From assembly GCA_022072415.1 (NCBI GenBank), contig JAJVHW010000065.1, positions 1-38,010 on the forward strand: a stretch of 38,010 nucleotides of DNA, given 5' to 3'. This stretch comes from Planctomycetota bacterium. Lineage in GTDB: Bacteria; Planctomycetota; JAJSAM01; JAJVHW01. Shown here in pieces: positions 16,824-24,517 of the stretch. The notes beneath the pieces are model-generated. The model was not told the DNA's origin. It did not search any database and was given only the letters and a program-made list of their open reading frames with translations. How positions within the stretch are numbered: position 1 is the first letter of the stretch; each line of letters begins with the position of its first letter. Both the position numbers and the translations under genes were made by a program.

Positions 16824-17210
16824 TCACAGGCTCGCCGCAGCAGCCCGCAGCCGGGCGATCCACGTCACGAGTTCCGCGCTCGACGCAGCGACCGTCAGCG
16901 ACGGCGCATGCCGCCTCAGCCATGCGTCCTCGACCCCCCGCGCCAGCGCACTGGCCCGATTGCCGAGGCTGCGGCCGATGAGTTCGAACGTCCGACGCGG
17001 CCAGACGTCCGCGACGAGTTGCGGCGAGACGAGGATCACCAGGCAGGCGGAGCCGTCGGCCGCTCGTGCGTAGCGAAGCAGCGCGTCCCCGGGTTCGACG
17101 ACCGCGACATCCGCGCCGATCGACGCGGCGAGCTCCGTCGCCGCGTCCGCATCGGCTCGGACGCAGAGGACCCGAGCGCGCATCTCGGTGTCCGCTGCGG
17201 CTGCGATCAC
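16824..17210 (-). CDS. Small GTGA-coupled protein, copy 1 (unknown function)
   Basis: This 128-residue soluble protein has the pattern R-V-L-C-V-R-A-D, an Ala-rich helix, A-D-V-A-V-V-E-P-G, then C-L-V-I-L-V-S-P-Q-L-V-A-D-V-W-P-R-R-T-F. The alternation suggests a small Rossmann/flavodoxin-like alpha/beta fold, but no family was recognised. GTG 17210 overlaps the upstream stop as GTGA. It is nearly identical to copy 2 (residues 1-115) but lacks that copy's C-terminal tail. Its first 29 residues match the chimeric radical SAM gene. It is the last gene of the leftward array. Confidence 0.7.
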   Translation of the reverse strand: MIAAAADTEMRARVLCVRADADAATELAASIGADVAVVEPGDALLRYARAADGSACLVILVSPQLVADVWPRRTFELIGRSLGNRASALARGVEDAWLRRHAPSLTVAASSAELVTWIARLRAAAASL

Positions 17211-17250
17211 TTCGACTCCGGCGCGCGGAGCAGCGTGCGGCCTTTCTCGA
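16857..17250. repeat. Long direct repeat, copy 1
   Basis: This segment matches 19428-19821 at a constant offset of 2571 bp with no indels. I counted about ten differences in roughly 390 bp. It covers most of small gene copy 1 and the 3' end of the upstream gene. Beyond 17250 the two copies diverge progressively. Confidence 0.9.
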
Positions 17251-18319
17251 CCAGGTTCGCGACGGCTGCGGCGTCATCGCCCCAGTCGCGGTCCACGAGG
17301 AACCGCCGGAGGAACCAGCGGCCGTGCCACTCTGGCCAGCCGCTCACGACACCCGGCTGTCCCATCGACTCGAGGCCCAAGGCTCGGATCTCACGAATCT
17401 CCTCCGCCTGGCTCGGACTCGCCTCCTCGCGACCTGCGTGCATCAGCTTCAGGCGTGTGTGCGACTCCCAGTCGACGAGGTCCGCATAGCCGAGCGCCGC
17501 GACGGCCATGACCGCCTCAGCGCGACTCGTCGGCTCGGGCGAGGTTCGCGCCCGGACTTCGAGCCACTCGGCGAATGCCGACACGCGCCAGCCGCCGTGC
17601 GCGTCCCGCAGACTCCCCCACAGCGAAGCAGCGGCGGACGGGCTGCAGTCCGGCACGCGCGGAGTCCCACCGACGGATGTCCATCCGACGGGCGACAGGT
17701 CCCGGCCCAGCGGCCACTCCTCGACCGACCGCGAACTCTTGCGGCAGAACGCCGCGGGCACGGCGGACATGCCGCGCGCCCAGGAACCGACGCGACGGCC
17801 GGCCTCCTCCTCGTCGCCGGCGCTGAACGCGCACACCGCAAGCATCAGGTCGACGGCTGCGGAACTCGGGCGAAGCGTTCCGGCCCCGCGATCCCGGCGT
17901 GTCAGCTCCAGGGTGTTTCCCAGTGCGCCGACACCGCCGCGCTTCAGCGCCTGCACCAGAACCTGTTCGATCTCGGCGGACCCGCAGGCGCCTTGGTCGA
18001 CACGCGGGAGGAGCCACCCGAGTTGCTTCGCCGCCTCCGGAAGCGAGTCCGCGTCGGTGCCACCCCCGAGCGGCGGAGTGCTCTCTGGAGATGCAGGCGA
18101 ATCCGAAGTCGGCTTGGCATCTCCGCCGGATTCCGGACGAGTGGACGGGGTGTCGGCGGCCTCCGCCCGCTTCGGGCGTGGTGACGTCCCGGGCCGCGCG
18201 GAGCTCACGGCTCCTCCGCCCGAGGGAATCCGTGTCTCGGCGCTCTCGCCGGGGTCTCTGCACGCAAGAGGCGAAAGCATCACGATCGACGCAGCGGCGA
18301 CAGCGCGCACGCCGCCCAT
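17207..18319 (-). CDS. Putative exported/lipoprotein-like protein, paralog 1 of the Cys-repeat locus
   Basis: From ATG 18319 the protein has 370 residues. It has a hydrophobic N-terminus ending near S-P-L-A-C, a weak lipobox, then a Pro/Ser/Thr-rich linker to about residue 95. The rest is a helical domain ending in G-R-W-F-L-R-R-F-L-V-D-R-D-W-G-D-D-A-A-A-V and E-K-G-R-T-L-L-R-A-P-E-S-K. The family is unrecognised. Two paralogs follow in the window; their last 30 residues are almost identical while the rest has diverged. GGAG lies 10 nt before ATG 18319. ATG 18457, which overlaps the Cys-repeat stop as ATGA, is an in-frame alternative that adds 46 residues before the signal. Confidence 0.7.
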   Translation of the reverse strand: MGGVRAVAAASIVMLSPLACRDPGESAETRIPSGGGAVSSARPGTSPRPKRAEAADTPSTRPESGGDAKPTSDSPASPESTPPLGGGTDADSLPEAAKQLGWLLPRVDQGACGSAEIEQVLVQALKRGGVGALGNTLELTRRDRGAGTLRPSSAAVDLMLAVCAFSAGDEEEAGRRVGSWARGMSAVPAAFCRKSSRSVEEWPLGRDLSPVGWTSVGGTPRVPDCSPSAAASLWGSLRDAHGGWRVSAFAEWLEVRARTSPEPTSRAEAVMAVAALGYADLVDWESHTRLKLMHAGREEASPSQAEEIREIRALGLESMGQPGVVSGWPEWHGRWFLRRFLVDRDWGDDAAAVANLVEKGRTLLRAPESK

Positions 18320-18453
18320 CGTCGATCCGCTCCAGTTCGCGAGTCGGTCACGCACGTGCGTCGACCGTACGCGGAAGACGGGACGGCTCCGCGCGCGGGG
18401 CCTCACGGACGCTCCGTTGGCGCGGGGCGCCGAGTTCGCTGCGCCGCGGCCGT

Positions 18454-19287
18454 TCATTCCGGGTCCGATCCATCCGGATGCACGCCGCCGGGCCCGGACC
18501 AGGGCATGCCGCAGTCGGAGTCTCCGGATTGAGGCAGCATGCACGCGCTGTCGGAGTGCGTGATTCCGACCAGGGAGTTGGCCCCGCAGTCGTTGTCTCC
18601 GATGGTTCCGAGCAAGCCGCCCTGAGTTCCAGCGACGGCACAGTCATTGTCGCCCTGCGCCCAGACCATCGGAGGTGACCCGATCGTCGTCCCGCATGCG
18701 GCATCCACGAATCGGCCGCCTCCGGGGGCGGCGACTGCGCAGCGCTGATCCGGGTCGGGGTACCCGGACGGCTGTCCCACGACTCCGTGCTTCCCGCAGG
18801 ATGAATCCTGGGATGGCGGGGTGCCGGCGCCGCAGTCGTTGTCCGGATCCAGAGCTCCGCTGGACGCGATCGCGGCCTTCCCGCAGGCATCGTCTGCATC
18901 CAGAGCGGCCGGGTCTCCGGTCGTCTGTCCGCAGTTGAGATCCGCTGCCACGCCTGAGGTTGCGGTGGCTGACTTGTTGCATGCGGCGTCCTCGTACACG
19001 CCGTGTCCCTCCCCGCCGACCGCCCTGCATCGCAGGTCAGCCTCGACGGCCGCCGTGCCGACCGGGTTCCCGCAGGTCGCGTCCGGGACTCGCTCGCCCG
19101 TCTCCGCCCACGTTTGACCGCATCCGGGCTCATCCGCGCGCGCCACCTCTGCCAGGCGGCCTGTCGCAACGAGGGAAAGAGCGAGCGAACCCAGCCCGAG
19201 CTTCGCAACTCGGAGAACCGCCGTTCGACGCGTCACGCGTTCGCCGCTTGCTGGCTCAATATCTCCGGATCGGCGTTGCGACTCCAT
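18454..19287 (-). CDS. Exported D-x-x-C repeat peptide, copy 1 (putative RiPP-like precursor)
   Basis: The 277-residue protein begins with a twin-arginine-type signal (T-R-R-T-A-V-L-R, then a mild hydrophobic stretch and A-R-A just before D-E-P-G-C), pointing to Tat export of a folded or modified protein. The mature part of about 220 residues has 14 cysteines. Thirteen sit in D-x-x-C (DATC, DLRC, DAAC, DLNC, DDAC, DNDC, DSSC, DQRC and so on) and the first in E-P-G-C. Spacing between cysteines is 10-19 residues, with Gly/Ala/Ser/Pro-rich linkers. No globular domain is evident. GGAG lies 9 nt before ATG 19287. It is paralogous to 20933-21736 and sits in the same operon as a SPASM maturase remnant. 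Confidence 0.8.
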   Translation of the reverse strand: MESQRRSGDIEPASGERVTRRTAVLRVAKLGLGSLALSLVATGRLAEVARADEPGCGQTWAETGERVPDATCGNPVGTAAVEADLRCRAVGGEGHGVYEDAACNKSATATSGVAADLNCGQTTGDPAALDADDACGKAAIASSGALDPDNDCGAGTPPSQDSSCGKHGVVGQPSGYPDPDQRCAVAAPGGGRFVDAACGTTIGSPPMVWAQGDNDCAVAGTQGGLLGTIGDNDCGANSLVGITHSDSACMLPQSGDSDCGMPWSGPGGVHPDGSDPE

Positions 19288-19304
19288 GGCGGGTTCTCCT
19301 GAAC

Positions 19305-19781
19305 TCAAGGAACTGCCTGTCCGTCTCGCTCAGAGGATGCAGGGATGCCGATCGACGCCGTGCGTGGTTGCGATCCGGGCGGCTCCGCAATCCCCGGGTT
19401 CACTTCCGGCGCGCGCCTCAGCCGGTCGATCCACGTCACGAGTTCCGCGCTCGACGCGACGAGCGTCAGCGACGGCGCATGCCGCCTCAGCCATGAGTCC
19501 TCGACCTCCCGCGCCAGCGCACTGGCCCGATTGCCGAGGCTGCGGCCGATGAGTTCGAACGTCCGACGCGGCCAGACGTCCGCGACGAGTTGCGGCGAGA
19601 CGAGGATCACCAGGCAGGCGGAGCCGTCGGCCGCTCGTGCGTGGCGAAGCAGCGCGTCCCCGGGTTCGACGACCGCGACATCCGCGCCGATCGATGCGGC
19701 GAGCTCCGTCGCCGCGTCCGCATCGGCTCGGACGCAGAGGACCCGAGCGCGCATCTCATTGCCCGCTGCGGCTGCGATCAC
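19305..19781 (-). CDS. Small GTGA-coupled protein, copy 2, with maturase-like tail
   Basis: This 158-residue protein matches copy 1 through residue about 115 and carries a tail of about 40 residues. The tail (R-R-A-P-E-V-N-P-G-I-A-E, later E-R-D-G-Q-A-V-P) aligns with the extreme C-terminus of the SPASM-domain gene at 21748 (R-R-A-L-E-R-N-L-G-L-A-E, later E-N-D-G-Q-A-V-P-G-T). It therefore looks like a maturase gene whose catalytic part has been replaced by, or never contained, the small alpha/beta domain. GTG 19781 overlaps the upstream stop as GTGA. The Cys-repeat gene follows 17 bp downstream. Function unknown. Confidence 0.7.
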   Translation of the reverse strand: MIAAAAGNEMRARVLCVRADADAATELAASIGADVAVVEPGDALLRHARAADGSACLVILVSPQLVADVWPRRTFELIGRSLGNRASALAREVEDSWLRRHAPSLTLVASSAELVTWIDRLRRAPEVNPGIAEPPGSQPRTASIGIPASSERDGQAVP

Positions 19782-19821
19782 TTCGACTCCGGCGCGCGGA
19801 GCAGCGTGCGGCCTTTCTCGA
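19428..19821. repeat. Long direct repeat, copy 2
   Basis: Near-identical partner of 16857-17250. The part from about 19692 onward also matches 22375-22580 more loosely. Confidence 0.9.
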
Positions 19822-20929
19822 CCAGGTCCGCGACCGCCGCAGCGTCGTCGCCCCAATCGCGGTCAACCAGGAAGCGCTTCAGGAACCACCGCCCCTGAGC
19901 GTCATTCCAGTGCCCGTGAATGCAGCCTTGCTCTCGGAGAGTCCTGAACTCCGTGAGGAGTTCGCGAACATGCGCGCCGGCATCCTGCGGCATGTCGGCT
20001 GGATCGGCCGCCCACCGCCTGCGGTCCGCTGCGCTGCTTCCCAGGGCGAGGTCTGCGTACAGAACCAGAGCTGCCGCCAGCGCGGCGGAAGCGCGGGATC
20101 GGGGCGTGGGTCCATCCTTCGCTTCGGATTCGAGCCACTCCTCGAAGTCGGCGGGGCGCCACTCAGGATGCGCTGTCCTCAGCTTCAGCCAGACAGACGT
20201 CGCACCCTTCGGGGTGCCATCCTTCCGTCCCGACGTCCCATCACCTGTCAGCCACCCCACCGGGGCCAGTTGGCGCCCCTGCGGCCAGGCGAGCCAGCTC
20301 TCCTTGGCCGCCTTGAGGAACGCGCCCTCCACCGCTACGACGTCAGTGCCGAACTCGATCAGCCGGTCCCTCGCGCCCGTCGCATCTCCGGCGCAGAGAG
20401 CGACCGCTGCGAGCAGGAGTTGGATGGATGCCGGTGCAGGCCGAGCGACGCCGGCCGATGCGGGCGCTTGCAGCGCCGTGAGCACCGATTCGAACTCGGC
20501 GAGCCCACCGGCCGCAAGCGAGTGCACCATGCAGTCCCCGACCTGACTTGAGTCCGGGGCCCCTGTCGTCGCAGTTGCGAGAATGCTGGCGAGCTCGGCA
20601 TTCTCCGTGGTCGTTCGTGGCCACACCGGCCCCGCGCCGTTGGCACGATCGGGAGGCCGGTCGCCGCTGGCGGCCTCCGGATCACGAGGAGCCGCGGAGA
20701 CAGGCGATGGCGGAAGACTCTGTCCTGATCGCGCTGCCCGAGGGGTTGGATCCCCGCCTCTCTCCGTTCGAGAGTTTGCGGGTGCCGGTGTTCGTCGTAC
20801 CGGGTCGGAAGCGCTGGACCCATCGCAGGAAGCCGCACCCGCAGCAGCCGTCAACCAAGCAAGAGCGGACGCCGCGACGAGTGAAAGACGGGCCCGCGTG
20901 AAGCGCCGGAGCGTCGATCGCACGCGCAC
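19778..20929 (-). CDS. Putative exported/lipoprotein-like protein, paralog 2
   Basis: The 383-residue protein starts at GTG 20929, only 3 bp after the preceding Cys-repeat stop. The N-terminus (M-R-V-R-S-T-L-R-R, then a hydrophobic Ala/Leu/Val run ending G-A-A-S-C) resembles a signal or weak lipoprotein signal. A low-complexity Pro/Ser/Arg linker to about residue 90 leads to a helical domain with L-A-P-V-G-W, F-E-E-W-L-E-S-E-A and the conserved end F-L-V-D-R-D-W-G-D-D. The same blocks occur in paralogs 1 and 3 (L-S/A-P-V/I-G-W; F-A-E-W-L). No known family was recognised. It is coupled by GTGA to small gene copy 2. Confidence 0.7.
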   Translation of the reverse strand: MRVRSTLRRFTRARLSLVAASALAWLTAAAGAASCDGSSASDPVRRTPAPANSRTERGGDPTPRAARSGQSLPPSPVSAAPRDPEAASGDRPPDRANGAGPVWPRTTTENAELASILATATTGAPDSSQVGDCMVHSLAAGGLAEFESVLTALQAPASAGVARPAPASIQLLLAAVALCAGDATGARDRLIEFGTDVVAVEGAFLKAAKESWLAWPQGRQLAPVGWLTGDGTSGRKDGTPKGATSVWLKLRTAHPEWRPADFEEWLESEAKDGPTPRSRASAALAAALVLYADLALGSSAADRRRWAADPADMPQDAGAHVRELLTEFRTLREQGCIHGHWNDAQGRWFLKRFLVDRDWGDDAAAVADLVEKGRTLLRAPESK

Positions 20930-20932
20930 CCG

Positions 20933-21736
20933 CTACCCCGGCTCCGACCCGTCGGTGTATGTGCCCCCGGTGTACGGATCGCCACAGTCATCGTCGCCGG
21001 AGCTTGGAAGCGTGCATGCTGCATCGGAGTGCGTCCCGGTGGACAGCGACCCGAGGCCGCAGTCCTGGTCGCCTGCCAGTCCGTCTCCGTGCGTCACGGT
21101 GTATGCGCAGTCGTTGTCCCCTTGGAATGCAGAGGGCGAACTGCCGACCAGCGGCTTCCCGCAGCTCTCGTCGCTGTAGCGACCGCTGTCGGGCGCCGAC
21201 TGCGCACATCGCTCGTCCGGCTCTGGATAGCCAGAAGGTTGCCCGGCGACGTTGTGACTGCCACACGCATCGTCCTTGGACACGATCTGCGCACCCATGC
21301 CGGAGCCACAGTCCGTGTCCTTGTCCAGCGTTCCGCCACCACCGATCGCGCTGACTCCGCAGTTCATGTCCTCATGCAGGATCGATGGATCTCCGACACT
21401 CGCACCGCAGGCCCGATCTCCTTTCGACCCGCCGGCAGGCACGGCAGTACAGCATGCCTCGTCTGCGTAGACGCCATACCCTTCGCCTCCCACCGCAGTG
21501 CATCGGGTGTCGGCTTCTACCGTACTCTGTCCATGGACCGTGCCACATGTAGCGTCCTCGGCGCGGGCGCCGCTCGGCTCGCTCTGTCCGCATCCGGCAC
21601 TGTCTGCGCGGGCGGATGCAATTCCTGCAATCGACGCCGCCGCGGAGAGCGAAAGTGAGCCCAGGGCGATCGACGCGATCCGTCGAATGGCGATGCGTCG
21701 CGTCACCGGGGCTGGCGTTCCGGACTCGTTCGACAC
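20933..21736 (-). CDS. Exported D-x-x-C repeat peptide, copy 2 (putative RiPP-like precursor)
   Basis: This 267-residue protein has a signal with T-R-R-I-A-I-R-R and an Ala/Ser/Ile-rich hydrophobic stretch ending A-R-A before D-S-A-G-C, as in copy 1. The mature part has 15 cysteines. Thirteen follow D-x-x-C (DATC, DTRC, DEAC, DRAC, DMNC, DTDC, DDAC, DERC, DESC, DNDC, DQDC, DAAC, DDDC); the other two are the first Cys and the second of a C-C pair. Blocks such as A-V-G-G-E-G-x-G-V-Y and V-x-G-Q-P-S-G-Y-P-x-P-D are shared with copy 1. GTG 21736 is chosen because AGGAGG lies 7 nt upstream, overlapping the stop of the SPASM gene. Confidence 0.8.
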   Translation of the reverse strand: MSNESGTPAPVTRRIAIRRIASIALGSLSLSAAASIAGIASARADSAGCGQSEPSGARAEDATCGTVHGQSTVEADTRCTAVGGEGYGVYADEACCTAVPAGGSKGDRACGASVGDPSILHEDMNCGVSAIGGGGTLDKDTDCGSGMGAQIVSKDDACGSHNVAGQPSGYPEPDERCAQSAPDSGRYSDESCGKPLVGSSPSAFQGDNDCAYTVTHGDGLAGDQDCGLGSLSTGTHSDAACTLPSSGDDDCGDPYTGGTYTDGSEPG

Positions 21737-21743
21737 TTCACTG

Positions 21744-21749
21744 CCTCCT
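21744..21749 (-). promoter_or_regulatory. Ribosome binding site that fixes the GTG start at 21736
   Basis: A perfect AGGAGG on the minus strand, 7 nt before GTG 21736, overlaps the TAG stop of the SPASM-domain gene and suggests coupled expression of maturase and precursor. Confidence 0.75.
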
Positions 21750-22464
21750 AGGTTCCTGGGACTGCCTGGCCATCGTTCTCCACCGGAGTGCTCGGGCCGC
21801 GTGCGGGCGGTTGAGGCGACTTGTCGGTCATCTCCGCGAGCCCCAGGTTCCTCTCCAGCGCCCGCCTCACCGAATCGCACATCGGCGCGTCCGGGCCGTA
21901 CACCTTGCCGGTCGGGTCGGAGAGATACTGCGGACACCCGCCGCCGCACCAGCGGGTGGCCCAGCAGCCTGAGCAGTGCTTGTAGACGGCGAAGACGCGC
22001 TCGTAGTAGGCGGCGACCGACGCGCGGTCCACGCCGCTCCAGATGTCGCCGATCTTGTAGGCCGACATCCCTACGTAGCGGTGGCACGGATAGACGCCGC
22101 CGTCCACGTCGATCCCCTGGTCGTTCCGGCCGACGCCGCACGAGATCTTCGTCTGCGGCCCCTTGCGGTCGCGATCCTTGCGGAGGAGTTCGAGCGACTC
22201 GAGGAACGGGCTGTACGGCTTCCGGCGCCCCGCGCGGATGTCGTCGAGCCCGCCCTGGTCGAGCATCTCCTCGGTCTCCGCGTAAAGGTCCCGGCGATCG
22301 TCGTCGGTCAGGTCGTAGGGGCCCTTGAAGAACGAGAAGCCCTGGTTCGAGCCCATCATCACCTTGCCGAAGCCCTTGGCGGCGAGTTCGGACGCCGCCT
22401 CCGAGTCGGCTCGAGCGCACAGGATCCGAAGGCGCATCGGCGTGCCCGCTGCGGCTGCGATCAC
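21748..22464 (-). pseudogene. Radical SAM/SPASM peptide maturase remnant fused to the small-protein N-terminus
   Basis: From GTG 22464 the ORF encodes 238 residues. Residues 1-29 match the small GTGA-coupled protein; from residue 30 (near position 22377) the sequence becomes the C-terminal half of a radical SAM/SPASM enzyme. SPASM-type cysteines are at 109, 127, 164, 167, 173, 177 and 196, including G-G-V-Y-P-C-H-R-Y-V-G-M and C-S-G-C-W-A-T-R-W-C-G-G-G-C. That pattern resembles maturases that cross-link Cys to other residues (SCIFF/ranthipeptide or QhpD-like). The CxxxCxxC radical SAM core is absent here and elsewhere in the locus. The frame is intact, so it could still be expressed; it is called a remnant because the catalytic core is missing. 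Confidence 0.75.
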
Positions 22465-22580
22465 TTCGACACCGGCGCGCGGAGCATCGTGCGGCCCTTC
22501 TCGACCAGGTCCGCGACCGCCGCGGCGTCGTCGCCCCAATCGCGGTCGACCAGAAAGCGACTCAGGTACCACCGCCCGAA
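22375..22580. repeat. Direct repeat, copy 3 (partial)
   Basis: It aligns with about 19692-19887 and the equivalent part of copy 1, covering the small-gene 5' end, the GTGA junction and the last 30 codons of the upstream paralog. Similarity stops abruptly near 22375, where the SPASM coding sequence begins. Confidence 0.75.
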
Positions 22581-23537
22581 CACCGTGTTCCATCCTTCGA
22601 AGTTCGCGGTCGGCATCGTGCCTCGGATTGCCTCCCCGTAGGACTCCACATCGGCGACTCGATCGGAGGGCGCCAGTTCGCGGCCGGACTCCCAGCCTCG
22701 CAATCGGCGCAAATCCGGCCATGTGGCGAGGTTCGTGTAGGCGACGCAGGCCGCACCGAGGACGCTGGCTGCGCGGAACTCCGGAACCCCCGTCCCGCGG
22801 GCCTCCGTATCCAGCCACTCGGCGAAATCGCCTGTGCGTAGAACGCGGCACCGCATCGTCAGCACCTGCCAGAGTTCCTGAACCGGTTGGGGCGTTGGAT
22901 CGTGCAGACCGGACGTCCGCGCGCGTGTGACCCAGCCGATTGGAGCCAGTTCCGCCGCCATCGTCCAGTCAGACGAGTCTGCCCTGGGGTCCTGCTGGAA
23001 GGATGATTCTGGAGGGGCGAGCTGGCGAGCCCACTGCGTCAGGTGCTCGCGAGCCGCTTCCAGATCACCTGCACTGTGGGCGGCTGCCGACAGCAGAAAG
23101 TGTACGCCGGCCGGTCGAGGCAGCGCCGCCTCAGGGCCATGATCGAGCAGCATCGACTCCAACGCCGATCTCAGCGAGGTGCTGCCGCTACGCTGCGCCC
23201 GCCTCACCAGCAGGCTCACGACTGCCTGCGACCCAGCGTTGCCCTCGCGGTAGCGGAGAGCGAGCTCGGCAACGTCGGCGTCATGCTTGACGCTCGGTGT
23301 CCGCGGTGGATTGGAGGCATCCTCCGGCGTACGGGAGTCGACGTCGTCGTTCCGGTTCTCTTGTGCGCGCCGCTTCTGCCCTCCCTCGGCTCGATGCGGA
23401 AGCGACTCGGGGCGCCCCTGATCCGCATCGCGACGCGGCGCGACTCGCGCGCCCGAGTCATCCGATGGATCGCGACTGCACGCCGTGACGGCGAGTATCG
23501 CCGCCAGCGCGACTCGCCGCGCAGTCTGTGGCGTCAC
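22461..23537 (-). CDS. Putative lipoprotein, paralog 3; first gene of the Cys-repeat operon
   Basis: From GTG 23537 the protein has 358 residues. It has a compact lipoprotein signal (T-P-Q-T-A-R-R-V-A-L-A-A-I-L-A-V-T-A-C, with lipobox V-T-A-C), a charged low-complexity linker to about residue 85, and a helical domain with L-A-P-I-G-W, F-A-E-W-L-D-T-E-A and the shared end F-L-V-D-R-D-W-G-D-D-A-A-A-V. It is the clearest lipoprotein of the three paralogs. TACCAT ends 8 nt before the start, marking the likely promoter of the whole leftward array. The stop overlaps the SPASM chimera start as GTGA. No known family was recognised. Confidence 0.72.
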   Translation of the reverse strand: MTPQTARRVALAAILAVTACSRDPSDDSGARVAPRRDADQGRPESLPHRAEGGQKRRAQENRNDDVDSRTPEDASNPPRTPSVKHDADVAELALRYREGNAGSQAVVSLLVRRAQRSGSTSLRSALESMLLDHGPEAALPRPAGVHFLLSAAAHSAGDLEAAREHLTQWARQLAPPESSFQQDPRADSSDWTMAAELAPIGWVTRARTSGLHDPTPQPVQELWQVLTMRCRVLRTGDFAEWLDTEARGTGVPEFRAASVLGAACVAYTNLATWPDLRRLRGWESGRELAPSDRVADVESYGEAIRGTMPTANFEGWNTVFGRWYLSRFLVDRDWGDDAAAVADLVEKGRTMLRAPVSK

Positions 23538-23545
23538 GAGGGACG

Positions 23546-23551
23546 ATGGTA
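23546..23551 (-). promoter_or_regulatory. Putative -10 (TACCAT) of the Cys-repeat operon
   Basis: TACCAT on the minus strand ends 8 nt before GTG 23537. The eight genes downstream are joined by overlaps or short gaps of 3-17 bp, except the 134-bp gap before ATG 18319, so this could drive all of them. Confidence 0.4.
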
Positions 23552-23620: not shown

Positions 23621-24517
23621 TCAGCCCGCACGCTCCCCCACGATCTCCACGACCCGGCACGGGGCGGTCTTGCCTTTCAGCGCGACGGTTGCGGTGCGGC
23701 CGCGGAGGAACGAGGCGGGGAGGCGGGCGTCGGCGTCGGCGGACACGAGGAGACGGGTGTCGGCGTCCTTGTTCGCGGACTCGATGCGCGAGGCGACGTT
23801 GACGGCGTCGCCGATCACGGTCTCCCGGCGGTTGTGCGCGGCGCCGAGGGTGCCGACGACGGCGGACCCGAAGTGGATGCCGGTGCGGGCCGTGAACGAG
23901 CGCCCGTAGGCCGCGGTCGTGTAGCGCGAGATCTGCGCCGCGGCGTCGGCGAGCGCGAGCGCGGCGCGCACGGCCTGCGGCGCGTCGGGGAAGACGGCCA
24001 TGAACCCGTCGCCCATGTAGTTGTCGATGCGGCCCCCGTGCGCGGCCGCGACGTCTCCGGCCGCGGCGAACCATCGTTCGAGCACGTGGACCACGTCGTA
24101 CGCGGGCAGCGCCTCGGAGATCGACGTGAACCCCGCGATGTCGGAGAAGAGGATCGCCATCTCCTCCTCGCGTCCGACCGCGCCGCCCGCGCCGGCGGCG
24201 GCGGACGCGAGCCGCACGTCGAGTTCGTCGAGCACGAGGCGCCGCACGGTGACGCCGCCGCCGCGGGCCGTGGTCTGGCACGCGAGGCGCGTCGCGTCGT
24301 CGAGCGACAATCGCGCCGCCATCGCGGACTCGGCGGCGTTCCGGGGCGCGCAGAGGTCCGTCCCGGACTCCACGCGCACGCGGCACGTCGAGCATCGCGC
24401 CTTCCCGCCGCACGCGCGGGCGATCGGCACCCCGGCCGCGACGAGCGCGTCGAGGAACGTCGCTTCCGGCGGGACGTCCACGGTCACGTCGTCGGGCAGC
24501 GCACGGAGATCGGTCAC
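23621..24517 (-). CDS. 2Fe-2S ferredoxin domain / class III adenylate-guanylate cyclase fusion
   Basis: The 298-residue protein begins with a plant/adrenodoxin-type 2Fe-2S domain: A-C-G-G-K-A-R-C-S-T-C (C-x5-C-x2-C) near residues 36-46 and a fourth Cys in R-L-A-C-Q-T. From about residue 115 it is a class III nucleotide cyclase with L-F-S-D-I-A-G-F-T (metal Asp), N-Y-M-G-D-G-F-M (second metal Asp) and G-D-A-V-N-V-A-S-R-I-E. It probably makes cAMP from ATP under redox or iron-sulfur control; that coupling is an inference from the fusion. GTG 24517 is preceded by TAGGCT 7 nt upstream. Confidence 0.92.
   Translation of the reverse strand: MTDLRALPDDVTVDVPPEATFLDALVAAGVPIARACGGKARCSTCRVRVESGTDLCAPRNAAESAMAARLSLDDATRLACQTTARGGGVTVRRLVLDELDVRLASAAAGAGGAVGREEEMAILFSDIAGFTSISEALPAYDVVHVLERWFAAAGDVAAAHGGRIDNYMGDGFMAVFPDAPQAVRAALALADAAAQISRYTTAAYGRSFTARTGIHFGSAVVGTLGAAHNRRETVIGDAVNVASRIESANKDADTRLLVSADADARLPASFLRGRTATVALKGKTAPCRVVEIVGERAG

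Follow-up and report, generated by a model that had tools for sequence, protein, structure and literature searches.

A broken maturase operon in a Planctomycetota genome and its intact relatives suggest an undescribed family of Tat-exported Asp/Cys-repeat RiPPs

The window, the whole stretch of 38,010 nucleotides analysed here, probably holds a degraded copy of an undescribed, ranthipeptide-like family of RiPPs, in which Tat-exported Asp/Cys-repeat proteins would carry many rings closed by Cys-Asp thioethers. This reading is built on several direct observations: maturase genes are paired with precursor genes in intact relatives, the spacing between Asp and Cys is fixed, RR motifs (read by eye) are present near the precursor N-termini, the maturases form a clade, and the window copy has lost its catalytic core. 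The source genome is in 174 contigs and 76% complete.

The original prediction placed eight leftward genes in close order, and every one of these ORFs was recovered on the minus strand, joined to the next by stop/start overlaps or short gaps. The operon begins with lip1 (22461-23537), a lipoprotein-like protein of 358 aa in unit 1 with paralogs lip2 and lip3, followed by a SPASM chimera (21748-22464) and the first repeat precursor, DxxC-1 (20933-21736, 267 aa). Lip2 of unit 2 (19778-20929), the small protein small2 (19305-19781) and the second precursor, DxxC-2 (18454-19287, 277 aa), come next, and lip3 of unit 3 (17207-18406) and small3 (16824-17210) close the series. The sequence also has an ATG in frame at 18457, from which lip3 would be longer and overlap the DxxC-2 stop. 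The gene upstream of lip1 (23621-24517) runs leftward too, stopping 83 bases short of lip1. The three paralogs of the original prediction are lip-small units, and a 199-nt repeat, D1, covers the lip 3' end and the start of the small gene or chimera in each of them; the unit 1 copy (22379-22577, minus strand) and the two others (19696-19894 and 17125-17323) include a middle copy to which the remaining two are 91% and 87% identical. Small3 is 91% identical to small2, and the two match at 97% over 300 nt. The lip and small proteins matched no Pfam or NCBIfam family above cut-off, no lip homolog was found in other genomes among the 149 searched (its own included), and the small protein had a single other match, a weak one (E 6e-4). 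Neither search gave useful relatives, and these results lend no support to the proposal that the three paralogs act on the product outside the cytoplasm.

The predicted SPASM domain of peptide-maturase type is borne out in the chimera, which matches TIGR04085 at 52.5 bits against a cut-off of 27 and has the full set of seven SPASM cysteines, with a Pfam SPASM score of 19.9 bits, just below the cut-off of 21.5. Its N-terminal part consists of the first ~29 codons of a small gene, counted from GTG, in frame with the end of a maturase from about residue 300, comprising the end of the barrel and the SPASM region; the radical SAM core and the CxxxCxxC motif are absent. The C-terminal part matches models of Nif11-type (4e-23), PapB (1e-21), SCIFF (1.4e-15) and QhpD (8.8e-13) maturases, each far under its whole-protein cut-off. 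The junction lies at the downstream end of the unit 1 D1 repeat. A weak maturase alignment had offered maturase sequence as the source of the first residues of the chimera, and this was rejected because the 199-nt repeat makes an origin from the small gene more likely. Small2 ends in a C-terminal tail that small3 lacks; this tail is similar to that of the chimera (43% over 42 residues, E 0.14) and is possibly the trace of a second lost maturase. The fusion could instead be an error of metagenome assembly, the living organism having an intact small gene and an intact maturase in unit 1, and a 76%-complete genome of 174 contigs with three similar units gives this some ground; however, in the stretches around the junction that were compared, units 1 and 2 have no exact run in common longer than 28 bases, which is short for a usual mis-join, and the fusion is in frame and coupled, so that we consider an assembly error improbable.

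The two predicted peptides with regular Asp/Cys pairs are also as described. Both have a Tat-type signal (RR) followed by D-x-x-C repeats: 13 of the 15 cysteines of DxxC-1 and 13 of the 14 of DxxC-2 have Asp at position -3, whereas 5000 shuffles gave 1.69 on average and 6 at most for DxxC-1, and 1.46 and 7 for DxxC-2. The pattern is far beyond chance. The two precursors are 52% identical, with identity at 26/26 Asp/Cys positions versus 92/191 other positions of the repeat region, and they differ by a dN of 0.46 and a dS of about 2, the latter close to saturation. No third such gene emerged when the source genome was searched with a precursor profile (best other match E 0.28), and a scan of genome contigs with both sequences found no relatives of the window precursors; relatives surfaced only via profile search or via the maturase.

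A full-length CxxxCxxC enzyme beside homologs of the Cys-repeat proteins had been named beforehand as a check, and such an enzyme is present in nine loci spread over two phyla, where an intact maturase ORF adjoins a D-x-x-C protein (L033, L034, L035, L036, L038, L054, L055, L140 and L193); sister maturases adjoin D-x-C proteins in four more (L037, L056, L067 and L076). Homologs consistently without a radical SAM gene, the outcome that would have counted against the prediction, were not observed. The ranthipeptide trait of a radical SAM/SPASM maturase beside its precursor is found in nine relatives, and the window has the remnant only. Pooled over 12 proteins, the D-x-x-C class has Asp at -3 for 148/165 Cys, and over 5 proteins the D-x-C class has Asp at -2 for 111/121. 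The precursors are 175-383 aa long (L037, which is cut by a contig end, apart) and contain 8-32 Cys each. An RR motif, often R-R-x-F-L-K/R-like, was read by eye near the N-terminus in 16 of 17 precursors and is absent in L067; among the eight scanned with Pfam, L056 alone matched TAT_signal, at 17 bits against a cut-off of 22.7.

The repeat proteins might also be ordinary secreted disulfide or thiol proteins beside which a maturase is found by coincidence. They are Cys-rich and have export-type signals, and modelling the precursor structure gave nothing informative (mean pLDDT 34.9). Nevertheless, the adjacency in nine intact D-x-x-C loci of two phyla, together with the D-x-C sister branch, brings this explanation close to refutation, and we give it very little credence.

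Some loci are incomplete. L057 has an intact precursor next to a maturase with two in-frame stops, the precursors of L069 and L071 are short with one D-x-C each, and L195 is a short RR-type fragment only. In G253 the precursor has no N-terminal signal and lies on a 5.7-kb contig that carries no maturase, which we count against the thioether reading; the adjoining ORFs are transposase-like by eye. The searches covered samples of 294, 392 and 324 genomes of the window phylum, 288 of the phylum of G396 and 76 of the genus of G426, with three (392-genome sample), five (288-genome) or seven (324-genome) candidates scored per genome, and absences are accordingly soft. For example, G388 was found via its maturase in the 392-genome sample and is missing from the precursor-profile matches of the 324-genome sample. 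Of the 376 relatives in one maturase search, the best 80 were kept. To count in the precursor screen, an ORF had to span 40 codons or more, contain five or more Cys and show the same residue at a single offset from no fewer than 55% of these; the neighbor screen around tree rows required a protein with six or more Cys lying no farther than 5 kb from the maturase, and many loci have flanks of only about 1.5 kb.

Seven of the 13 intact maturases and 14 of the 17 precursors were scanned against NCBIfam, and eight of the 17 precursors against Pfam. The best matches of the seven maturases are PapB, QhpD, SCIFF and Nif11, and no listed cut-off was reached. The PapB model (NF047865, cut-off 340) gave 241.5, 224.4, 230.3 and 220.7 bits for L033, L034, L036 and L038, and 288.8, 277.0 and 258.8 bits for the D-x-C maturases L037, L056 and L067; it is among the top two for six of the seven and fourth for L033. 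The best QhpD scores (TIGR03906, cut-off 453) are 251.3 for the four D-x-x-C and 283.3 for the three D-x-C maturases, and the best of the seven are 247.0 bits for the SCIFF maturase (TIGR03974, cut-off 425) and 269.5 for the Nif11-type maturase (TIGR04064, cut-off 518.7). With the nine intact pairs and with PapB and QhpD among the best matches, the idea of a RiPP-like system with a PapB/QhpD-type maturase holds up. The best solved match is 5wgg, which we take to be CteB and whose entry title refers to thioether bond formation (1.1e-83 by sequence, 2.2e-23 by fold); the match takes in the N-terminal region. The weak family matches of four precursors are all under cut-off.

In a 112-row tree, twelve labelled maturases (eight D-x-x-C and four D-x-C) together with L069 and L071 form one clade (support 98), and in a more careful tree that includes the window remnant the D-repeat clade is recovered at 100/99 with the chimera inside it. 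D-x-x-C and D-x-C maturases fall on separate branches in both trees, so that spacing follows the maturase tree. The available flanks of the 98 other rows of the 112-row tree contain no Asp-Cys repeat neighbor. The rows were reduced from 116 to 112 by dropping one duplicate fragment and three short low-scoring rows, the L057 maturase was excluded from alignment and trees owing to its in-frame stops, and L193 was found after the trees. Long branches meet in the 112-row tree, including those joining the Akkermansia/Kiritimatiellae and the L069/L071 rows, and these joins are therefore less sure; the careful tree kept them and flagged L055.

Homology argues for the proposed thioether chemistry of the D-x-x-C pairs. 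It is nonetheless conceivable, although unlikely, that the maturase modifies these precursors by C-alpha thioethers, links to other residues or epimerization, with Asp at -3 or -2 serving in recognition or metal binding. SPASM and other radical SAM enzymes are described as catalyzing several peptide reactions, and the precursors are Asp-rich, one of them with a sub-threshold match to a MopE metal-binding motif (E 0.048, 14.4 bits against 27). Against this, three of the four best-matching families (PapB, QhpD and SCIFF) make links from sulfur to non-alpha carbons in the published accounts available, two of them to Asp, and the spacing changes with the maturase branch, so that an acceptor residue fits better than a general metal site. 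Enzymes of the clade could catalyze a different radical reaction, which we count against the thioether reading.

The window copy cannot work from its own maturase, because it lacks the catalytic core and the 76%-complete genome yielded no intact member of the clade; we count this, too, against the thioether reading. The system in the window is broken, and the precursors are presumably unmodified in this organism at present. The only other related enzyme in the source genome (G000:C1:64035, L002/L048) falls outside the clade, together with Ruegeria proteins (100 in the 112-row tree, 100/100 in the careful tree), and the only ORF flagged in the 20 kb around it is 1264 codons long, with 9 Cys of which 3 are in D-x-x-C. 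This enzyme was considered as a stand-in maturase and rejected on its grouping and on the lack of an Asp-Cys repeat gene seen nearby. A system that still works, with an intact maturase encoded in the portion absent from the assembly or another radical SAM enzyme acting in trans and the SPASM remnant as a helper, is a less likely but real alternative: the shared Asp/Cys sites are all kept, and the remnant retains its cysteines in an open, coupled frame. However, the Ruegeria-like enzyme, its single flagged neighbor and the lack of a third precursor gene all speak against it, and the Asp/Cys conservation may be older than the loss of the maturase.

Under the preferred reading of a Cys-Asp thioether family, the N-terminal recognition domain of the radical SAM/SPASM enzyme would bind the leader of a long Tat-type precursor, and the enzyme would link each Cys sulfur to an Asp that precedes it by a set interval, which is three residues in D-x-x-C and two in D-x-C. 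By analogy with PapB, the bond would most likely be to the Asp C-beta. Modification would precede export, and the many-ringed acidic protein would then leave by Tat. The evidence is evenly balanced on a broader proposal, namely that these proteins are polythioethers exported by Tat and form a new class, with some 8 to 30 Asp-Cys rings in each chain and a spacing code set by the maturase branch (Asp at -3 or -2, always before Cys). The class would be patchily distributed and repeatedly broken in Planctomycetota, Verrucomicrobiota, Kiritimatiellota and Chloroflexota. Should the cross-links prove real, we know of no radical SAM products as heavily stapled into rings, and the products would be proteins, not short peptides, that leave the cell by Tat. 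The existence of two sister branches of enzymes, each with its own spacing, constitutes a natural test of how SPASM enzymes choose an acceptor residue. The family would further supply maturases to protein engineering and give a way into the secreted proteins of phyla that have been little studied, one Akkermansia strain among them.

Among known systems, SCIFF (CteA-CteB) provides the closest solved maturase in sequence and fold. SCIFF precursors, as far as we know, have neither Asp-Cys repeats nor Tat signals. In published descriptions CteA differs further: its six Cys lie within 45 residues, and the acceptor is Thr. PapA-PapB, whose product freyrasin has a Cys-Asp link at C-beta, is similar in placing several Cys-Asp pairs at fixed spacing within one precursor. 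However, PapA is described as Cys-X3-Asp, with Cys first, whereas Asp comes first in the new family: Asp at +4 occurs for 29/165 Cys in the D-x-x-C class, versus 148/165 at -3, and for 12/121 in the D-x-C class. In the literature available, Asp-accepting enzymes use this opposite order, Cys before Asp, which we count against the thioether reading. The new family also differs in PapB scores (220.7-288.8 against 340 bits), in precursor length (175-383 aa) and in the Tat-type signal of 16/17 precursors (by eye). QhpC-QhpD likewise involves Cys to Asp/Glu thioethers formed in the cytoplasm in an exported protein, but the qhp product is reported to contain three links in which Cys precedes the acid, to carry a quinone cofactor and to leave through an ABC transporter, whereas the proteins of the new family have 8-32 Cys each and a signal of Tat type. 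The Streptococcus ranthipeptide pair NxxcA-NxxcB is similar in having its acceptor three residues ahead of Cys (Cys23-Asn20, i-3, at C-beta). NxxcA is described with a single link and an Asn acceptor, whereas the new family has Asp and many sites; in a set of ten proteins the -3 residue is Asp for 120/134 Cys, and Asn is outside the eight commonest residues there.

Between positions 23537 and 16824 the window carries eight leftward open reading frames, spaced by short gaps or by stop/start overlaps and arranged in three units: lip1, SPASM chimera and DxxC-1; lip2, small2 and DxxC-2; and lip3 and small3 (lip, lipoprotein-like protein; small, small protein; DxxC-1 and DxxC-2, the D-x-x-C repeat precursors). 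Within the two precursors, Asp lies at position -3 for 13 of 15 cysteines in DxxC-1 and 13 of 14 in DxxC-2, compared with a mean of 1.69 and 1.46 Asp-Cys pairs, respectively, when the mature regions were shuffled (5000 trials; maxima 6 and 7). Both proteins begin with what appears by eye to be an RR-type signal, and neither has any Pfam or NCBIfam match at E 1. Their overall identity is 52%. All 26 Asp/Cys positions are common to both proteins, as against 92 of 191 other repeat-region positions, and dN, at 0.46, lies well under dS (~2, near saturation); selection therefore acted on the Asp-Cys pairs for at least some of the period since the precursors diverged.

As judged from its sequence, the window holds these precursors with no working maturase. 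In the SPASM chimera, a small gene supplies the first ~29 codons, and the remainder aligns to full-length maturases from about residue 300 and stops after the SPASM domain. It retains seven of seven SPASM cysteines, lacks CxxxCxxC, and has the Nif11, PapB, SCIFF and QhpD maturases as its best models. It is unlikely that this fusion is a common assembly mis-join, because the segments compared near the junction have no exact run in common with unit 2 longer than 28 bases; the source assembly comprises 3.86 Mb in 174 contigs and is 76% complete. The tail of small2 is 43% identical to that of the chimera over 42 residues (E 0.14), a weak hint that unit 2 may also once have had a maturase, since lost, of which this tail is a remnant. 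The only further related enzyme found in the genome is a radical SAM/SPASM protein that has CxxxCxxC (L048, G000:C1:64035-65000); it groups with Ruegeria proteins in a clade other than that of the D-repeat maturases, and no Asp-Cys repeat precursor was seen near it.

The three units also share a 199-nt repeat, consisting of the final 117 bases of the lip gene and the first ~82 bases that follow, with 91% and 87% identity to the middle copy. The small2 (19416-19715) and small3 (16845-17144) genes are 97% identical over 300 nt, whereas the whole lip proteins are only 34-39% identical to one another (39% for the lip neighbours of small2 and small3). This discrepancy suggests that a module made of the lip end and the small gene was copied between units, recently, or was subject to gene conversion. 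Just upstream of the operon, a leftward gene at 23621-24517 appears by eye to encode an adenylate/guanylate cyclase with a ferredoxin-type domain fused to it, and could share the operon's transcript.

Intact pairs of maturase and precursor are encoded elsewhere. A profile of DxxC-1 and DxxC-2 matched one further genome, G107, among 119 searched (the window's own included), and the matching precursor directly adjoins a radical SAM/SPASM gene. Searching the SPASM part against 294 genomes of the window's phylum, Planctomycetota, from which 20 regions were taken and scanned, placed a D-x-x-C protein beside an intact maturase at three G107 loci (L034, L035, L036), in G155 (L033) and in G137 (L038). 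With five maturases as queries against contigs of named genomes, an Asp-Cys repeat neighbour was present for 7 of the best 80 of 376 relatives: D-x-x-C proteins at L053 (the same as L038), L054 and L055 (Planctomycetota) and L057 (Verrucomicrobia), and D-x-C proteins at L056 (Thermoflexus), L067 (Akkermansia muciniphila CSUN-56) and L076 (Kiritimatiellae), the last with two precursors. Further intact D-x-x-C pairs were found at L140 (in G388, whose 7.7-Mb genome is a single contig) and L193 (G647), and a D-x-C pair at L037 (G154), with its precursor truncated at the contig end. The D-x-x-C type is thus represented by nine intact pairs and the D-x-C type by four intact maturases. The precursor follows the maturase, except in L055, L057, L140 and L193, where it precedes it.

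In twelve D-x-x-C proteins (the nine of the intact pairs, the window's two and that of L057) Asp is at -3 for 148 of 165 cysteines and at -2 for 13, while in five D-x-C proteins it is at -2 for 111 of 121 and at -3 for 11. By eye, 16 of these 17 precursors have an RR motif close to the N-terminus, L067 being the one without it.

A phylogeny of 112 maturases recovered eight D-x-x-C rows, four D-x-C rows, L069 and L071 as one clade with support 98, although Treekit warned of meeting long branches, some of them inside this clade. Within it, the D-x-x-C rows form a branch (94), as do the D-x-C rows with L069 (Lentisphaerae) and L071 (Verrucomicrobia) (99). L069 and L071 each adjoin a short protein that carries a TTRRKF signal and a single D-x-C. 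No Asp-Cys repeat neighbour was found beside the other 98 rows within the flanks examined. A second, careful tree of 30 rows placed the window remnant inside the clade (100/99) and inside its D-x-x-C branch (90/90). The clade rests on the tree and not on score, since L076 (316 bits) and L067 (308 bits) are level with L078 from Acetobacterium (309 bits), which lies outside it. The seven maturases tested, which had 72-81 NCBIfam matches apiece, fell under the cut-off of every model among their best 25, including PapB (221-289 bits, cut-off 340), QhpD (up to 283, cut-off 453), SCIFF (up to 247, cut-off 425) and Nif11 (up to 270, cut-off 519). The general Pfam model Radical_SAM is passed by L034, the single maturase scanned. 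The closest solved protein is 5wgg, both by sequence (E 1.1e-83, profile positions 28-492) and by Foldseek (E 2.2e-23, using a maturase model of mean pLDDT 74.3).

A CarboxypepD_reg protein adjoins the pair at L035, L036, L067 and L076, and just below threshold at L038 (31.2 vs 32.3 bits), which if counted gives five of the ten loci with a neighbour scanned in Pfam; the scanned neighbours at L034, L054, L055, L056 and L173 had no such match. Around the D-x-C pair, L067:6627-13563 and L076:3012-13752 have their genes in a common order. A protein of 430-450 aa (in L076 RHS-like, below threshold) is followed by the maturase, by one or more D-x-C precursors and by the CarboxypepD_reg protein; next come a protein that by eye is hydrolase-like and another of ~490 aa.

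Breakage of the maturase-precursor set recurs outside the window. At L057:2163-3825 the maturase contains two in-frame TAG stops, one of them at the Trp of the relatives' CxxCWAR, and adjoins a D-x-x-C precursor that is intact; these codons may reflect decay, recoding or an error in the sequence. G253 (L207:3409-4110) encodes a precursor with 13 of 13 cysteines in D-x-x-C but a missing signal, on a contig without a maturase, adjoining transposase-like ORFs (by eye). At L195 only a short RR fragment and then a transposase-like frame (by eye) come after the maturase, and at L033:7534-8502 a second precursor copy adjoining the intact one has a signal that by eye is damaged, as well as a stop ahead of the final repeats.

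The set is also rare. A repeat protein beside a maturase was seen in 5 of 392 sampled Planctomycetota (G107, G137, G155, G388, G154), in up to 4 of 288 sampled Verrucomicrobiota, counting broken sets, and in 1 of 76 genomes of the genus of G426, an Akkermansia genome. The reverse search, for precursors in 324 Planctomycetota genomes, gave 5 with a match: G107, G137 and G155 with an adjoining maturase, the window's own with the remnant, and G253 with none. Among the matches listed from the open-licence literature, none dealt with Asp-Cys repeat RiPPs exported by Tat; there, the terms 'DxxC', radical SAM and precursor returned one unrelated paper only, and 'Tat signal', RiPP and radical SAM returned none. 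This absence is weak evidence that such RiPPs are novel, as it covers open-licence papers and, for the longer sets of matches, the part that was listed.

Papers on related radical SAM chemistry (PMC8172795, PMC9413430, PMC7876137, PMC8326336) describe six Cys-to-Asp C-beta links made by PapB in Cys-X3-Asp motifs, with other spacings tolerated; three Cys-to-Asp/Glu links made by QhpD in the cytoplasm before export; and a Cys23-Asn20 C-beta link in NxxcA, with the acceptor at -3 of Cys. PapB and QhpD thus use the Asp acceptor of the D-x-x-C site, and NxxcA has its geometry of an acceptor three residues before Cys; from these two likenesses we infer that each D-x-x-C site would form one ring joining Cys sulfur to Asp C-beta. 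Ring formation would take place in the cytoplasm while the precursor still bears its leader, and the stapled acidic protein would then be exported by Tat. The proposed substrates differ from PapA in their spacing, as the Asp at +4 that is characteristic of PapA is found for a minority of cysteines here (29 of 165 in the D-x-x-C proteins and 12 of 121 in the D-x-C proteins).
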